A stretch of 37,435 bases of DNA. Origin: Aquificaceae bacterium (lineage in GTDB: Bacteria > Aquificota > Aquificia > Aquificales > Aquificaceae). The DNA lies in contig JALWEG010000031.1 in assembly GCA_027014155.1 (NCBI GenBank), positions 1 to 37,435 of the forward strand. Direction: 5' to 3'. The notes below the pieces were generated by a model that saw only the letters and a program-made list of their open reading frames with translations, searched no databases and was not told where the DNA came from. Below are positions 8,533-16,011 of this stretch, piece after piece (the first letter of the stretch is position 1; each line of letters begins with the position of its first letter). The position numbers were made by a program, and so were the translations under genes.

Positions 8533-8594
8533 CTTGATCCAAAAGAACTCAGATTACCTATATAGCCTAAAGCTGCCTGTGATTAGATAATTGT

Positions 8595-8993
8595 TTATTC
8601 CTTTTCTCCTTTCTTATCCTTTTCCTTCCCTGATGTAAATTTCCTAATTAAGAATGCGGTGGATAGTCCCGCTATAAAACCTACCACTCCTCCTGCTGCC
8701 ACAAGCCCAAGTATGCTCTTAGGTAAACTTCCCGATAAAGCCGAGACCAACCTCCCGCTCTCAACTTCTTTTAAAATCCCCCGCAGTTCCTCAAGGGTAA
8801 AGTCCCCATCGCTTTCGGCTTCCTCAACCAAAGCACTGAGCTTCTCAAGGGCTTCAAGAGCTTGTCCTCTCGGCTCGCTTTTGTCATTTTCCCACCGGTT
8901 TACGGTGGTAAAGCCTACCCCTAAGAGTTGAGCAAACTCTTGTTGTGTAAGCCCCAGCTTCTTCCTAAGCTCTCTTACTTCCTTGCCTTTCAT
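8595..8993 (-). CDS. XRE-family transcription regulator with C-terminal membrane anchor
   Basis: The 132-aa protein has an N-terminal Cro/C1-type helix-turn-helix (residues 4-55, with LGLTQQEFAQLLGVGFTTVNRWE), a short acidic linker (EEAESDGDFTLEELRGIL), one hydrophobic helix at about residues 93-116 (SILGLVAAGGVVGFIAGLST), and a highly charged tail (KEKDKKGEKE). This is an unusual build: a DNA-binding domain tied to the membrane, able in principle to couple membrane state to transcription. It is the last gene of the minus-strand island, 27 bases after the DUF445 gene. The ATG has no Shine-Dalgarno; a TATACT box ends exactly seven bases before it, so it may be made from a leaderless message as well as from the operon transcript. 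Confidence 0.85.
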   Translation of the reverse strand: MKGKEVRELRKKLGLTQQEFAQLLGVGFTTVNRWENDKSEPRGQALEALEKLSALVEEAESDGDFTLEELRGILKEVESGRLVSALSGSLPKSILGLVAAGGVVGFIAGLSTAFLIRKFTSGKEKDKKGEKE

Positions 8994-9000
8994 ATTTTGA

Positions 9001-9029
9001 AGTATATACCAAATGATTTATTATGCTAT
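9001..9029 (-). promoter_or_regulatory. Candidate leaderless promoter for the XRE gene
   Basis: TATACT (9001-9006 on the minus strand) ends seven bases before the start codon, which places the expected transcription start at the A of ATG. The -35 at 17 bases spacing is poor (ATAGCA, three of six matches). The box partly overlaps the self-complementary GTATATAC, which could be an operator. Confidence 0.35.
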
Positions 9030-9812
9030 GAGCAGTTGAAATACACCCAGTAAAAGCCCTATTCCAAAACCGAGAATTGTTCCGTTGACTCTTATCCACT
9101 GAAGTTCCTCCCACGAGGCTTTCTTGACGGCAGATATAAACTCATCATCGGATACGCTCTCTATCCTGTTCTTTATAAGCTCAAGGAGGTAGGAGTGCTT
9201 TTCCTCTATCAGCTTGGTCAGATACTTTTTGAGCAGGGTATCCACCTTTTCCTTTGTATTCTTATCTTCTCTCAGCTTTTTGAATGCTTCTTCTATCCAG
9301 CCTCCAAGGTTGTTCTCTATGAGCTGAGTTATCGCCTCCTTTATTACCTCTGTCATGGTTTTTAGGAGCGGGTTGAGAGTCATTGAACCTGACATAGAAC
9401 TCAGTAGCGTGTTTCCGTATTCGTCCTTGCGTCTGTTGATTATGTTTAAGATTAGCTCTTTTATCTTCTTTCGGGTTTCCGGGTTGTCTATCTGCTCTAT
9501 CACGAACTCAAAGTTTATCTTTTCTATCTCTTTGGTTATGTATTCTTTATTTAGCAGGAACTCGCCCACGAACTCCGTAGCCTTCCGGGACATCTCTTGT
9601 CTTTTCCTTCTCAAAATGTCCGTGTGTGGTCCCAGTTTGTTGAACAGCCCGTAAACCGCATAGGCGTCTGCGATAGCTCCCACGGCGGAAGCCTCAAAGG
9701 CGGTCTTCAAAATAAAGAGCCACCACAGGTCAGGATACATGTGGCTTAGGTATGCGGTTATGGCAAACACCAGCAGGACGGCAATTAGAAGTAGGTTAAC
9801 TCTCTTTTCCAT
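9021..9812 (-). CDS. DUF445-family membrane protein
   Basis: The 263-aa protein fits DUF445 (YheB/YjiN-like). It begins with a membrane helix (NLLLIAVLLVFAITAYLSHM), then a second hydrophobic stretch with the family pattern AVGAIADAYAVYGLF and ILRRKRQEMSRKATEFVGEFLL. A long helical middle region follows, then a C-terminal SWEELQWIRVNGTILGFGIGLLLG, where the charged pair meets the last membrane helix. Function is not established for the family. AAGGAG lies seven bases before the ATG, inside the 3' end of the upstream dynamin-like gene, and the two frames overlap by 17 bases, so translation is likely coupled. That coupling is good evidence that this protein works with the GTPases. Confidence 0.85.
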   Translation of the reverse strand: MEKRVNLLLIAVLLVFAITAYLSHMYPDLWWLFILKTAFEASAVGAIADAYAVYGLFNKLGPHTDILRRKRQEMSRKATEFVGEFLLNKEYITKEIEKINFEFVIEQIDNPETRKKIKELILNIINRRKDEYGNTLLSSMSGSMTLNPLLKTMTEVIKEAITQLIENNLGGWIEEAFKKLREDKNTKEKVDTLLKKYLTKLIEEKHSYLLELIKNRIESVSDDEFISAVKKASWEELQWIRVNGTILGFGIGLLLGVFQLLIA

Positions 9813-11805
9813 AGTTAAGCTCCTTACTTTTTAAAAAGTTTCTCAACCTCTTGAAGAATTCTTCTTCACGTTCCTTTATGTCGGAAAGCATATCTTCTCC
9901 ATTTTTATATATAGAGATGTTTTCTATACCACAGCCTATAAGTTTGTCCCTTAAGTTTTCTGACGGGCAGACAGCGCAAACATGATCGCCCTCACGAATC
10001 GTTGTTTGTATATAACCAAACTCAACCTTCGGATCTAGAGTTTTCAGAAACTCTTCTGAAATTTCTTGGTGTATAAACATTAATTGGCGGACAATGTCAT
10101 TTAAGCTGAGCGAGACATGTTTTGTGGCTGCACTTTCTTTTTTTATAGCATTCCTTACTTCCCTGAATGACTTATCTATTTCATAAATAGTTTGTTTTAT
10201 CTCACCCCTAAGCTCCTTTTCTATTTGCTTAATTTTCTTTTTTATCTCTTTATTAGCTTTCCTTTTAGCTTCAGCTTTTTTATCTTTTTTCTGCCAAAAC
10301 TTCCAGATCCAGTCAAATATTTTTTTGAATAAAAAAAATACACTCAAGATTATAGCAACAATATTACCAATAGAAGATGCCAAAATAACAGATATTACTT
10401 TTAAAGCTACATCTCCCACTTCCTTTAATATATCCCACATGTGTATTTTTAAGGATTTTACAATCTCGTCAAAGTCCAAAGGCTTATATTTTGAAATATA
10501 CCTACTAAGCCCTTCTATTTTTTCCTTCAGAAGCTCAATTTCCTTCTTAGTCTTTTTTTCAAAATCTTTAAGCTCATTTTTTATGTCGTCTTCTATCTGC
10601 TTTCCTTTTTCAGTTGCTACATTATTAATAGCTTTCTTCCATATATTTTCATCTTGAATATCTTTGTCTATAAGCCCATATACCTTATCTCTCAACTCCT
10701 TTTCCAGTTCGGCTATACGCGTTCTTATAATACTATATATGTTTCTCTTTAAAACTTCCTTCTCTTTTCTGTATTTTTCACTTAATTTTTTAAAAGCTTC
10801 CTCCAACCCTTTTATATAGGAGTCAATATCTTTCTTATTTCGGAGTATATTAGAGACTATTCTTTCTTGTCTATTTAGTATCTTACGTGTGTTAGACCAT
10901 AATAGTTTTAACTTAAATTGTTGTCCGTTCTTTAGTTTGTTTATTTCCTCAATCAAAGAATTTACATTGGATACATCTTCAAGTTTATCCTTTCCTCCAA
11001 AGGATTCTACTGTTCTTTTTGCCCTGTCCCGGGACACAAACACCACCTCTTTAGAAGAAGGACTGAACCCTTTAGCCCTTGCGTAAAAAGCGTATAGTGC
11101 GTGAACTTTTATTATTCCTTTGAATCTATTACCAAATATGTTAGTCAACTTTTCTCTTGATCTCTTTTCAATTATTTGTAAGCCTACAAGTTTCTTATGA
11201 AAATCATCCTTGTTTTTGGCTGATATTCTTATATTAATTACCCCATATATATACGTATGTTCATTTAAAAATGATTTAATCTTTTTTAAAGTCCCTTCTT
11301 CTGGCTCTTTGTTGTTTGAAAATATGTAAAAGACAACATGGGCCTTATTTACTGCCCTTTTTATTGAGTTTTTTACCTCTCTCTCATTTCCCTCTATTCC
11401 GGGCGTATCTATGAGGTTTACATCTTCAGAAAATGGCAATATTTTATAGTTCTTGGTAAAGTCTTTCCTACCATCACCTATACTTCTTCCATCGCCGCCT
11501 ATTAATGCTTCTATCAATGTACTTTTTCCTGCATTGGTTTCTCCGAAAAAAACTATATTCAACTTATCCCAATCAAGATACTTCAAATCTTCTAAACTTC
11601 GGGTGAGCTTATATATACCTTTTTCTATATCATTGATTAGCTTACTATAGTCTTCTTTAATCTTATCCAATTGATTCTCTGCCTCTTTCTTAGTGGTTGA
11701 ATACTCAGGAAGCTTATTGCTATTTTTAAACCTCTTTGTAATATGTATGAACTCTAATGTTTTATCCTCAAGATAATTTTTAAATTGCTTTATTGCCAAA
11801 TTCAT
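9796..11805 (-). CDS. Dynamin-like GTPase with internal membrane segment, 669 aa
   Basis: A GTPase domain starts near residue 80 with P-loop GETNAGKST (88-96) and the Walker B/G3 motif DTPG (133-136). The G4 motif is not a clean NKxD. Long charged coiled-coil helices follow (residues ~310-450), then a hydrophobic hairpin at about 466-492 (VALKVISVILASSIG and NIVAIILSVFFLF). After it comes another helical arm rich in Lys and Glu, and a C-terminal part with a C-x2-C pair (HVCAVCPSENL). This order, GTPase, helical stalk, membrane paddle, returning stalk, is that of bacterial dynamin-like proteins that remodel or fuse membranes. The gene is markedly AT-rich. It overlaps the LeoA-like gene by 26 bases and the DUF445 gene by 17. 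Confidence 0.85.
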   Translation of the reverse strand: MNLAIKQFKNYLEDKTLEFIHITKRFKNSNKLPEYSTTKKEAENQLDKIKEDYSKLINDIEKGIYKLTRSLEDLKYLDWDKLNIVFFGETNAGKSTLIEALIGGDGRSIGDGRKDFTKNYKILPFSEDVNLIDTPGIEGNEREVKNSIKRAVNKAHVVFYIFSNNKEPEEGTLKKIKSFLNEHTYIYGVINIRISAKNKDDFHKKLVGLQIIEKRSREKLTNIFGNRFKGIIKVHALYAFYARAKGFSPSSKEVVFVSRDRAKRTVESFGGKDKLEDVSNVNSLIEEINKLKNGQQFKLKLLWSNTRKILNRQERIVSNILRNKKDIDSYIKGLEEAFKKLSEKYRKEKEVLKRNIYSIIRTRIAELEKELRDKVYGLIDKDIQDENIWKKAINNVATEKGKQIEDDIKNELKDFEKKTKKEIELLKEKIEGLSRYISKYKPLDFDEIVKSLKIHMWDILKEVGDVALKVISVILASSIGNIVAIILSVFFLFKKIFDWIWKFWQKKDKKAEAKRKANKEIKKKIKQIEKELRGEIKQTIYEIDKSFREVRNAIKKESAATKHVSLSLNDIVRQLMFIHQEISEEFLKTLDPKVEFGYIQTTIREGDHVCAVCPSENLRDKLIGCGIENISIYKNGEDMLSDIKEREEEFFKRLRNFLKSKELNYGKES

Positions 11806-13414
11806 CCCACTTACAACCTTCCACTGTAGCCATAGCTTGTTTTATATTTGCTAACAGCGTTTCCCTATCAGCTATGTCCTTTTCTAAGTCACTAACATGC
11901 TTTTCCAGTTCAAGCAAAGGAGGGAAGAAAGCTTCTTTTAATCCTTCTTCCTGAACTTGAGCAGTTAATTCATTAAATAAATTATCTATTGTTTCTATTA
12001 ACTCGCTTTTCTTACGCTTAAATAGAATTTTTCCTACTACATCTATTATATCACTAACAACTTCTGTTACTATAGCTAAAGCTTGAAGTGCTTTTGCGAA
12101 TTTCATTGCCTGCCAAGGTTTAAATTTGATAGGAAGTTTTAGAAAGTTCCTTGTTCTTAATATTCCTTCTCTTAATACTGTTGTGGGCATACTTCTAAGA
12201 GCCTTTCCGGCATATTTCCCAATAACAATTCCGCCTTTTGCCAAGCTTAGGAGCGTTTCGTCCCAAGTGCTATAAAAATCAGAGATTTTTTCCATTACTT
12301 CTATTGCTGCCTTTAGGTATTCGTAAATAGGCTCAAATTCTTCTGTAAAGATCAGTTCTACTTTATGCTTTAAAACATAGCCTTCTCTACCTATATCTTC
12401 TACGACTACCATTTTTAGGCACGTAAGGTCTGTGCATCCATGAATCTCGCCAATCAACTCACTTCTATAGGCTAACAACCTGCTCTTTATACGACCAACA
12501 GCTTTTGAAAGTTCTTTATTTACACTATCTACTTCTTCCTTTAGTTCGTTGTAATTTAGCTTTAGCATTTCTATATCGTCTTGAATTTTATCTAAAACCT
12601 CTTTAAATTCTTTCTTATTCTCAATAGCTATATCCTTTAGAACAGACTTTACCTTTGCCAACATAAGAGCATATTTATTTTCATTAACTATACCTGCTAT
12701 TATGTTTTCAAGTTCCTTGATATTCGACAATTTCTCATATTCCTCTCTGTTGGAAAGCCAGTGATCTATTCCCATGCCGTATGGATCTGCAGATAAACAC
12801 ACTATTTTATAAGAGCTGTCAGAAGTTCCCAGTATATTATTGAGAGTATCTATGACTGTTTTCTTTTTGATTTCACATATAGTTTTAAACTCTTCTTTGT
12901 TCTCAATATCTATACCGGTAGTATCAATCTTATTAATTACAAATATAGTCTGATTTAATTTGTCTAAATCTCTTAATATCCATTTTATAGTTTGGTGCTG
13001 GCTTTGCTTTAATGGATTCACAGCATCTGTAGTGAATATTATTAAGTCTGCTTCAGAGATGTATTTTCTCGTCAATTCATCATGCTCAGTTTTCTCAGAA
13101 AAAAGCCCGGGTGTATCTACTATAAAAAAATCATCATACTCGTAAGTTGCGATTTTGTCTGTTGTAGGCTCGGGGGCTATCTTTATATCTGTCCTGCCGA
13201 GTAATACGGATATCACCGTTGATTTTCCGTCCGAAAAAGCTCCAAAGAGAACAATTTTTAGCTGCTCCTTCTCAATATCAGCTCTCGTCCTATCTATTTT
13301 TTCTTTCGTATCTGTAAGGTCTATATTTAGAAGCTGCTCCAACTGCTCAACCTTACCTTTGCACTCGCTCAATTTGGCTAATATCTTGGCTTTAGTTTCT
13401 TTAAAATCTTTCAT
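11780..13414 (-). CDS. LeoA-like dynamin-family GTPase, 544 aa
   Basis: The N-terminal helix is followed by a GTPase domain with P-loop GAFSDGKST (58-66), a PEPTTDK switch region, DTPG (100-103) and NKID (161-164), so all four guanine-nucleotide motifs are recognisable. Helical stalk segments follow, plus a moderately hydrophobic patch at about 430-455 (KALQALAIVTEVVSDIIDVV) before a final coiled coil. The GAFSDGKST loop and overall shape resemble the LeoA / HP0731 family of dynamin-like GTPases, first noted with enterotoxin secretion in E. coli. GGAGG lies seven bases before the ATG. Codon use is AT-rich compared with flanking genes. The partner GTPase gene overlaps its 3' end, as expected for dynamin pairs that form hetero-oligomers. 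Confidence 0.85.
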   Translation of the reverse strand: MKDFKETKAKILAKLSECKGKVEQLEQLLNIDLTDTKEKIDRTRADIEKEQLKIVLFGAFSDGKSTVISVLLGRTDIKIAPEPTTDKIATYEYDDFFIVDTPGLFSEKTEHDELTRKYISEADLIIFTTDAVNPLKQSQHQTIKWILRDLDKLNQTIFVINKIDTTGIDIENKEEFKTICEIKKKTVIDTLNNILGTSDSSYKIVCLSADPYGMGIDHWLSNREEYEKLSNIKELENIIAGIVNENKYALMLAKVKSVLKDIAIENKKEFKEVLDKIQDDIEMLKLNYNELKEEVDSVNKELSKAVGRIKSRLLAYRSELIGEIHGCTDLTCLKMVVVEDIGREGYVLKHKVELIFTEEFEPIYEYLKAAIEVMEKISDFYSTWDETLLSLAKGGIVIGKYAGKALRSMPTTVLREGILRTRNFLKLPIKFKPWQAMKFAKALQALAIVTEVVSDIIDVVGKILFKRKKSELIETIDNLFNELTAQVQEEGLKEAFFPPLLELEKHVSDLEKDIADRETLLANIKQAMATVEGCKWDEFGNKAI

Positions 13415-13416
13415 AT

Positions 13417-13656
13417 TTATCCTCCATTAATTCTTTTCTTCCCCTTATGCACCTTAACCCCCCACGGAGGTCTAAGCTCAATCTTGCCCCAGAGCTTGGG
13501 ATTTTCCCATGCACTCGTAGGCATCTTGTAGTTACCACCGAGGTCTATGTAGTCCCCATCGTCGGGAACGTCAGTCTTAGTAAAAGATTTGTCTTTCCTC
13601 TTCTTCCAGTAAGCTAAGAAAGCCATCCCCAGAAGAAACTTTACAAAGTTCCCCAT
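13417..13656 (-). CDS. Small membrane-anchored hypothetical protein, 79 aa
   Basis: I do not recognise a family. The first ~17 residues form a short hydrophobic anchor (GNFVKFLLGMAFLAYW) followed by a basic stop-transfer stretch (KKRKDKSF), an acidic loop (DVPDDGDYIDLGG) and a proline/aromatic basic tail (RPPWGVKVHKGKKR). A strong AGGAGG precedes the ATG. Its 3' end carries the Shine-Dalgarno of the LeoA-like gene, and only two bases separate stop and start, so the two are co-translated. It may be a small membrane adaptor for the GTPases. Confidence 0.75.
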   Translation of the reverse strand: MGNFVKFLLGMAFLAYWKKRKDKSFTKTDVPDDGDYIDLGGNYKMPTSAWENPKLWGKIELRPPWGVKVHKGKKRINGG

Positions 13657-13682
13657 AGCTATATTCCCTCCTTTTTGAGAGA

Positions 13683-14144
13683 TTATACACTCCCACTCAG
13701 AATATCATCACCGAAAGCTTCGGTTATAAGAGTCCTTATACTCTCTTCCTCTACATTTTCAGCCTTCCAAAGAGAGTAATCCCTTACGTCCTCGGAAATG
13801 AGTTTCCACACAAAAAGAAGCATCGCAACATCGTCCATCTGCCCGAGAATGGGAATGAAGTCGGGTATCAGGTCTATGGGATTGAGTATGTAAATAAAAA
13901 CAATTGCTATAGCTACCAGCGTCTTTGAAGGCAGCTCCGTATAAACTCCGTTCCAGTAGTCTTTGAGGAGCATTCCCAAGAGCCTTACCTTGGCGAACTC
14001 TCTGCTCAAAATGGAGCTGTCCGCTACCTTCCTGTAAACCTCGTCCGTCTTCTTAACAGCCTTTTCAATATCCTCCTGAGAGGTCTCCTCGCTCAGCTTC
14101 TCAAACTCCTTCTTTATCTTTTCTTCCGGAAAGTTTTCTTTCAT
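13683..14144 (-). CDS. DUF1232 (YkvA-like) membrane protein
   Basis: The 153-aa protein has an N-terminal charged helical half and a C-terminal DUF1232 domain: YWNGVYTELPSKTLVAIAIV, then the hallmark YILNPIDLIPDFIPILGQMD and a second hydrophobic stretch DDVAMLLFVWKLI. The family's role is unknown; members are small membrane proteins often found near stress or envelope genes. It is the first gene of the minus-strand island, with GGAGG about nine bases before the ATG and a near-consensus promoter just upstream. The 79-aa gene follows after 26 bases. Confidence 0.9.
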   Translation of the reverse strand: MKENFPEEKIKKEFEKLSEETSQEDIEKAVKKTDEVYRKVADSSILSREFAKVRLLGMLLKDYWNGVYTELPSKTLVAIAIVFIYILNPIDLIPDFIPILGQMDDVAMLLFVWKLISEDVRDYSLWKAENVEEESIRTLITEAFGDDILSGSV

Positions 14145-14177
14145 ACCTCACACCTCCACAGATAAATATACACCATT

Positions 14178-14206
14178 AATATAGCAAATGCAATATTAGT
14201 TGTCAA
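14178..14206 (-). promoter_or_regulatory. Strong sigma-70-type promoter of the DUF1232/dynamin island
   Basis: On the minus strand a perfect TTGACA (14201-14206) is followed after exactly 17 bases by TATATT (14178-14183), five of six matches to TATAAT. Transcription should start near 14171, giving a leader of about 27 bases that contains the GGAGG of the DUF1232 gene. The -35 is one arm of the shared palindrome at 14201-14215. Confidence 0.7.
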
Positions 14207-14215
14207 GTCTTGACA
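14201..14215. promoter_or_regulatory. 15-bp palindrome holding both divergent -35 boxes (candidate operator)
   Basis: TGTCAAGTCTTGACA is a perfect inverted repeat with a single central base. Each arm contains TTGACA on one strand, so the minus-strand island promoter and the plus-strand promoter of the 239-aa gene share this element back to back. A dimeric repressor such as the XRE protein encoded at the end of the island could shut both promoters from here. Confidence 0.6.
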
Positions 14216-14237
14216 TATATCTTCTGAAGGATATACT
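14210..14237 (+). promoter_or_regulatory. Sigma-70-type promoter of the 239-aa gene
   Basis: TTGACA (14210-14215) and TATACT (14232-14237) are 16 bases apart. The expected start of transcription falls at the ATG at 14245, seven bases past the -10, so the message would be leaderless. Confidence 0.6.
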
Positions 14238-14244
14238 GATAAAC

Positions 14245-14964
14245 ATGGATATAGAGTACGAGGATATCCTCTTCAAATTGCCTTTCTATGCCCCCGACAA
14301 CATCAAGTTTATCCTCGGGGTTGATATTGTTGACAGCGCACCCTCCTCTTGGCTTATGTTGTATCCCTACGGTAAAAGTGTCAGGTTCGTAAGCGAGACC
14401 TGTATAGGAACGATACTCTTCAGGCAAAACTTCCTCAGACTCGTAAACATACCCGAGCTGAAGCCTGCGATAAACATGGCTTACTTCAGAGTCTTCAGGA
14501 GTTTAGGGCTGTCCGAGGAGAAGTTTGAGGCTTGCTACCTGATAAACCTTGACACCCGGGACTGGTTTGTAGCCGAGCGTTCTTTAGGGAGGGTGATAGT
14601 CTATGAGAACTACACCGGTGCTAACGTGAAGGAGTACCTTGACTACATGACATTCCTGAGGATGTGGGGAATTGACAACGAAAAACTTAAGTGGGAATCT
14701 TACGAGGATTCTTTTATGGAATACATGATGGAGAGACAGATTCAAGGGCGCAGGCAGTTGTCGGCTTACAGAGATAACGTACCTTTTGCGGATTACTCCT
14801 ACGAAGCCTACGTTCGGATTCTTTCAGCGGGCAGAGGAGTGTATGACCCCCTTCAAAGGGAAGAGCTTATGAGAGCAAAGGCGGAGGACTTGGAGGTTGA
14901 TTACGAAGAGGTTATGAGTATGTGGAATGTAAGCTGGTACTTAGAGAGGGTGGCTTGTAGGTAG
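14245..14964 (+). CDS. Hypothetical protein, 239 aa, divergent from the dynamin island
   Basis: I do not recognise a family. The frame is open back to a TTG at 14200, but that codon lies in the promoter; the ATG at 14245 (MDIEYEDILFKLPFYAP) is preferred. The protein looks soluble and mixed alpha/beta, with many aromatic residues (YENYTGANVKEYLDYMTF) and a helical acidic C-terminus (REELMRAKAEDLEVDYEEVM). No catalytic motif stands out. Composition is like that of ordinary neighbours and not like the AT-rich GTPase genes. Because it shares a control region with the DUF1232/dynamin operon it may belong to the same system. Confidence 0.7.
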   Translation: MDIEYEDILFKLPFYAPDNIKFILGVDIVDSAPSSWLMLYPYGKSVRFVSETCIGTILFRQNFLRLVNIPELKPAINMAYFRVFRSLGLSEEKFEACYLINLDTRDWFVAERSLGRVIVYENYTGANVKEYLDYMTFLRMWGIDNEKLKWESYEDSFMEYMMERQIQGRRQLSAYRDNVPFADYSYEAYVRILSAGRGVYDPLQREELMRAKAEDLEVDYEEVMSMWNVSWYLERVACR

Positions 14965-15051
14965 GTATCAGAGCCTAACGGATATGCCTGCATTCCCGAG
15001 GGAGGTATCTAAGCTTGCCACAAGTGGCTGAGATAATAATTTCTAAATACC

Positions 15052-16011
15052 ATGAGCAGATACCTCAGCCTAAAGGAATATCTACTAAATAGGTATGGCA
15101 AAAGAGTTCAGAAGATAACCGTTGCCCTGCCCTTTACGTGTCCCAACAGGGACGGGAGCAAGGCGTGGGGTGGGTGCACCTTTTGTGCCGAAGGCTCAAA
15201 GCCCTCCATGCTGAGCGCAGAGGTTCCCCTCAGAGACCAGATAAGAGAGGGTATAGAGAGAGCTAAAAGGAAATACGGAGAAGACATATACTTCTTCGTG
15301 TATTACCAGTCCTACACCAACACCTACGCCGACGTAGAAACCCTCAAGGAGGTTTACGATACCGCCCTTGAGTTTGACGGTGTCGTGGGCATAGACGTAG
15401 GGACGAGGCCCGACTGCGTGCCAGAGGAGGTTTTACATCTCCTCTCGGGATACGCTCAAAGAGGACTGGAGGTATGGCTTGAGCTGGGACTTCAGTCGGC
15501 CAACTTTGAGACCCTAAAGAGGATAAACAGGGCGCACGGGGTATCCGACTTCGTTGATGCCGTTCTAAGAGCCAAGAGCCTTCCTCTCAAGGTGTGCACC
15601 CACATGATAATAGGGCTTCCCGACGAAGGCAGGGAGGACGTCATAGAAACCGCAAAGCTGATTGCCTCTCTGCCGGTGGACGGAGTGAAGATACACCCGC
15701 TTCACATAATAGAGGGAACGCTCATGGCCAACCAATACAGGAGGGGAGAGATAAAGACTCTGTCCATGGAAGAGTACGTGTCCCTATGTGCCGACGTTAT
15801 TGAGATACTACCACCTTCGGTGGTGATTCACAGACTCACGGGGGAGACGGAGGAAGACAGGCTAATAGCTCCCGAATACTGCTCGCCCAAGATGAAAAAT
15901 AAGGTGCTTGAAGCCGTGCGCCGAGAGCTTGAGAGAAGAGACACATACCAAGGCAGTGTAAATCCCTTCAATCACTCGCCCTCTAAGATTTCCCTCTCTA
16001 TATCAAAGTAA
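15052..16011 (+). CDS. Radical SAM protein, YhcC (TIGR01212) family
   Basis: The 319-aa protein carries the 4Fe-4S/SAM-binding cysteines as C30, C42 and C45 (FTCPNRDG and GGCTFCAEG), the wide C-x11-C-x2-C spacing of the YhcC family instead of the usual C-x3-C-x2-C. Further family segments are YYQSYTNTYA, GIDVGTRPDC, ELGLQSANFETLKRINRAH and MIIGLPDEGREDV. The reaction is not established with certainty; a role in modifying RNA or a cofactor is possible. It starts with no clear Shine-Dalgarno, about 90 bases after the 239-aa gene. Its last 40 bases overlap the convergent metallo-beta-lactamase-fold gene. Confidence 0.9.
   Translation: MSRYLSLKEYLLNRYGKRVQKITVALPFTCPNRDGSKAWGGCTFCAEGSKPSMLSAEVPLRDQIREGIERAKRKYGEDIYFFVYYQSYTNTYADVETLKEVYDTALEFDGVVGIDVGTRPDCVPEEVLHLLSGYAQRGLEVWLELGLQSANFETLKRINRAHGVSDFVDAVLRAKSLPLKVCTHMIIGLPDEGREDVIETAKLIASLPVDGVKIHPLHIIEGTLMANQYRRGEIKTLSMEEYVSLCADVIEILPPSVVIHRLTGETEEDRLIAPEYCSPKMKNKVLEAVRRELERRDTYQGSVNPFNHSPSKISLSISK

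Follow-up and report, generated by a model that had tools for sequence, protein, structure and literature searches.

Abutting back-to-back sigma-70 promoters predicted between a putative dynamin-type defence operon and a putatively leaderless gene in an Aquificaceae bacterium

Focusing on the short intergenic region between two divergently oriented gene units in the 37,435-nucleotide stretch of Aquificaceae DNA analysed here (hereafter, the window), the question arises of whether a perfect palindrome at positions 14201–14215, TGTCAAGTCTTGACA, is an operator at which a regulator acts, or whether it is formed by two promoters that are placed back to back and compete for RNA polymerase. The 15 bp palindrome, which has no strand of its own, contains an unpaired central T flanked by 7 bp arms, carries TTGACA on each strand and is made up of two facing −35 hexamers and one G/C pair. 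The −35 box of the leftward promoter (TTGACA, 14201–14206, minus strand) is followed after a spacer of 17 bp by the −10 box TATATT (14178–14183, minus strand), which is of the extended type with TGC preceding TATATT. The −35 box of the rightward promoter (TTGACA, 14210–14215, plus strand) is followed after a spacer of 16 bp by the −10 box TATACT (14232–14237, plus strand). The palindrome with TTGACA on both strands, its coordinates and the spacings of 17 (TATATT) and 16 (TATACT) bases had been given in the first-pass annotation and proved to be exact to the base. Only 3 bases lie between the two −35 hexamers, whose centres are separated by 9 bp, short of a full helical turn. A distance of 48 bp (14183 to 14232) separates the −10 boxes, and one of around 73 bp the predicted transcription starts. 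On opposite strands, pointing outwards and with adjoining upstream elements, the two predicted promoters form a back-to-back divergent sigma-70 pair. The gene starts on both sides fit this arrangement, with the leftward ATG located 33 nt past its −10 box and the rightward ATG located 7 nt past its own; the sequence itself establishes both predicted promoters, the spacing within each and the gene starts that they face.

The pair is unlikely to be a product of chance. In the 37 kb window, matches of 11 of the 12 consensus positions of a sigma-70 promoter were found at these two promoters only, and in simulated 100 bp regions of the same composition matches of at least 11/12 on both strands appeared in one of 20,000. 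Genome-wide counts were obtained by pattern searches. Strings of the form TTGACA-N16–18-TATANT occur nine times in the bacterium's own 1.86 Mb genome, compared with three times in the control read backwards, and two of the nine are the present promoter pair. Across 16 genomes of the family the same strings number 243, compared with 36 in the controls, and consensus sigma-70 promoters are therefore in use in the clade. The back-to-back promoters with abutting −35 boxes that had been proposed from the first reading, as well as the polymerase competition that was drawn from these abutting predicted promoters, are thus backed by sequence and statistics as predictions.

The leftward unit lies on the minus strand and begins with a gene for a DUF1232 membrane protein of 153 amino acids (13683–14144), in which a Shine–Dalgarno sequence, GGAGGTG, precedes the ATG at 14144. 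It continues with a 79-residue protein for which a family search returned no family (13417–13656), a LeoA-type dynamin-like GTPase (11780–13414; PADLOC LeoA at 1.4e-99, and NF041922 above its cut-off), a LeoBC-type dynamin-like GTPase (9796–11805; PADLOC LeoBC at 8e-96) and a DUF445 membrane protein (9021–9812), and ends with an XRE-type helix–turn–helix (HTH) protein, whose C-terminal segment is hydrophobic (8595–8993). The two GTPase genes are adjacent, as is characteristic of a LeoA/LeoBC pair, and the operon is putatively a dynamin-based phage-defence operon. The GC contents of leoA (34%) and leoBC (32%), compared with 47% in the window, suggest that these genes were acquired. The ATG of the XRE gene is preceded, at a distance of exactly 7 nt, by a −10-like TATACT (8994–9021) without a −35 box; the gene shares this leaderless-type geometry with the first rightward gene described below and may have a transcription start of its own.

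Homologues of leoA in two other genomes, G028 and G026, are 46–48% identical to that of the window and lie behind unrelated upstream DNA; sites upstream of them were considered as counterparts of the present promoters and were rejected, with matches of just 9–10 of 12. In G028 (L017, 8950–16272) two DUF1232 genes flank the leoA/leoBC pair, and the neighbouring genes, read from sequence alone, look Cas6-like, CARF-like and CRISPR-associated, as in a defence island. DUF1232 proteins may be recurrent partners of Leo dynamins. In G026 (L065, 7583–9550) the leoBC homologue beside leoA is split into three open frames, either because this copy is decaying or through an error in sequencing.

On the rightward side, the first gene encodes a lineage-specific protein of 239 amino acids (14245–14964, plus strand), for which family searches returned no family or solved relative and gave weak matches to PHROG 5802 (0.0013) and PADLOC PDC-M45C (0.004). 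This gene is predicted to be leaderless because its ATG lies 7 nt past the end of TATACT; the first T of this box is 13 bp before the ATG and there is no leader-borne Shine–Dalgarno sequence, the GAAGGA of the region being upstream of the rightward −10 box and hence outside the predicted transcript. In two Aquificae genomes leaderless genes have been predicted at 20–32%, with TANNNT some 12 bp upstream of the start codon (PMC3160421). In the other genomes searched the 239-residue gene is absent, save for a remnant of its 60 C-terminal residues in G001, a genome of the same genus, where 11 of the 16 differing codons are synonymous. This remnant (L005, 4231–4397, and L006, 1–60) stands at a different location and comprises the last 60 codons behind an unrelated 58-residue open reading frame, and the two pieces are probably one locus because their contig ends overlap.

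The second rightward gene encodes the radical SAM tRNA-modification protein MnmL/YtqA (15052–16011, plus strand; TIGR01212 at 3.8e-130). In the genomes G006 and G014 mnmL follows pdf, its usual neighbour, at a distance of around 23 bp, and in the window a unit of around 6.5 kb (8533–15051) lies between pdf and mnmL/ytqA; since the two genes adjoin in G006 and G014, this unit is most simply read as a putative insertion. In G001 mnmL instead follows selB, as read from its open reading frame, and tRNA-Sec, so the gene order is fluid. An inserted defence island may thus rewire the operon that it has split by means of its own outward promoter.

Taken together, we consider it likely that the region contains two near-consensus sigma-70 promoters that are arranged back to back, abut one another and exclude each other, and that work as an either/or switch without a regulator. 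Given the size of the footprint of the RNA polymerase holoenzyme, with the −35 centres less than one helical turn apart and the predicted starts separated by around 73 bp, the two footprints are expected to overlap, and on these geometric grounds only one RNA polymerase probably binds at a time. One bound holoenzyme would bar the opposite promoter, and the site would act as an intrinsic switch for which a regulator is dispensable. Leftward transcription would start near 14171, with a leader of around 27 nt carrying the Shine–Dalgarno sequence, and the transcript would run from the DUF1232 gene through the 79-residue gene, LeoA and LeoBC to DUF445, possibly including XRE. Rightward transcription would start at the ATG of the 239-residue gene or within 1–2 bases of it, without a leader, and may run on into mnmL/ytqA, because no plus-strand terminator was predicted between 14964 and 15052. 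Among the relatives searched no orthologous intergenic region was found, and conservation is therefore no guide to this promoter pair. It is conceivable, if doubtful, that the switch couples the dynamin-type defence operon antagonistically to the leaderless lineage-specific gene and to the tRNA-modification gene behind it; if so, a shift in the activity of one promoter would automatically move the other in the opposite direction.

The alternative that survives best, itself unlikely, is that a factor binds elsewhere in the intergenic region, represses the dynamin operon only and thereby frees polymerase for the rightward promoter. Its best candidate site is a 22 bp near-palindrome without strand, TAATATAGCA-AA-TGCAATATTA (14177–14198), in which nine of the ten pairs match and which spans the leftward −10 box and spacer, a typical position for a repressor. 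A repeat of this quality was present in 136 of 5000 simulated regions; however, the symmetry is AT-rich and weak as evidence, with 12 repeats this good in the window, and the near-palindrome is unique in the genome and has no relative against which conservation could be checked. It is a better operator candidate than TGTCAAGTCTTGACA, if still a weak one.

That a single promoter is active, with the other TTGACA a chance by-product, appears quite improbable. A consensus match is no proof of activity, and in the 10 kb scanned matches of at least 9/12 numbered 12 compared with 15 expected, as would suit this explanation; against it, matches of 11/12 are rare and both promoters face start codons at suitable distances.

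As regards the palindrome itself, the consensus −35 boxes of two divergent promoters are by definition each other's reverse complement and so form an inverted repeat. Of the 14 paired letters of TGTCAAGTCTTGACA, 12 are explained by the −35 boxes, and the symmetry beyond the two hexamers is a single G/C pair, with a probability of around 0.27. Perfect 7+1+7 palindromes number three in the window compared with 2.3 expected. The palindrome is thus for the most part a by-product of the two facing TTGACA boxes and, since only one symmetric pair is added to a repeat that such boxes form by definition, it provides no independent evidence. Facing TTGACA boxes 0–9 bp apart showed no general excess, with 31 compared with 18 in controls in the bacterium's own family and seven compared with 23 in controls in the order's other two families, and nearly all such pairs in relatives are without good −10 boxes on both sides. 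The idea put forward in the first-pass annotation, that one dimer bound to the palindrome blocks both genes, is possible but unsupported: its symmetry follows automatically from the facing −35 boxes and nothing links the XRE protein to it. Hence, even though a dimeric HTH protein could plausibly occupy a symmetric site of 15 bp and the same gene cluster ends with an XRE gene, the reading of TGTCAAGTCTTGACA as an operator at which a dimeric regulator, for example the XRE protein of the island, shuts both promoters together is the least likely of all, given the lone extra symmetric pair, the single occurrence of the 15-mer in its own genome, its recurrence only once among 40 relatives (in G005, in an unrelated context and with a −10 box on one side only), the lack of any 8-mer common to the intergenic region and the DNA upstream of the XRE gene (a weak test, as the XRE protein may bind elsewhere), and an XRE protein that has a hydrophobic stretch at its C terminus and for which no full-length relative was found. 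The features by which a dimeric operator is recognized, namely extra symmetry and copies of the site at further targets or in the regulator's own promoter, were thus not found for TGTCAAGTCTTGACA, and a genome-wide regulon of this site is excluded by the lack of a second copy of the 15-mer in the genome.

The proposed arrangement of two mutually exclusive promoters is neat but ordinary, a further example of a type described long ago; what the predictions describe is a real, well-formed abutting divergent pair, and the biological surprise is limited because the layout has long been known. Back-to-back and overlapping divergent promoters were reportedly treated by Beck and Warren in 1988 (cited in PMC4469952). 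The present Leo genes resemble the LeoABC system of enterotoxigenic Escherichia coli (ETEC; PMC4159319) and the LeoA/LeoBC system of PADLOC in having LeoA and LeoBC genes side by side, both of which match their profiles strongly; here, however, they are embedded with genes for DUF1232, the 79-residue protein, DUF445 and XRE in an operon with a putative role in defence. The repressor of mycobacteriophage BPs was considered as a parallel and rejected, its operator lying between the −10 and −35 boxes of one promoter and not at shared −35 boxes.

The bidirectional promoters of Warman et al. (PMC12825309, PMC10268837) resemble what is predicted here in that the symmetry of promoter elements leads to divergent transcription and polymerase competition. 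However, promoters of that type share a −10 element and have starts 7–25 bp apart, most often 18 bp (PMC12825309, PMC10268837), whereas the present pair has facing −35 boxes with −10 boxes 48 bp apart and predicted starts around 73 bp apart, and does not belong to this type.

Back-to-back or overlapping divergent promoters such as E. coli fepA/fes and Pc/Pr of pLS20 (PMC4207663) resemble what is predicted for the present pair in that the polymerase footprints overlap and one polymerase can exclude the other. In pLS20 the likely −35 box of each promoter falls on the likely −10 box of its partner (PMC4207663), whereas here the −35 boxes abut; the strengths of Pc and Pr are several-hundred-fold apart and a known regulator acts on them (PMC4207663), whereas here both promoters are near-consensus. 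For the pLS20 pair one polymerase has itself been proposed as the switch (PMC4207663), and in bidirectional promoters of E. coli competition shows when one side is strong (PMC12825309). Because the predicted footprints overlap, and in view of these E. coli and pLS20 precedents (PMC12825309, PMC4207663), mutual exclusion would be expected here without a regulator. If active, the pair would be a compact natural setting in which to study how polymerases compete where −35 boxes abut: rules published so far cover shared −10 boxes and weak promoters, whereas here both sides look strong and no regulator would be needed.
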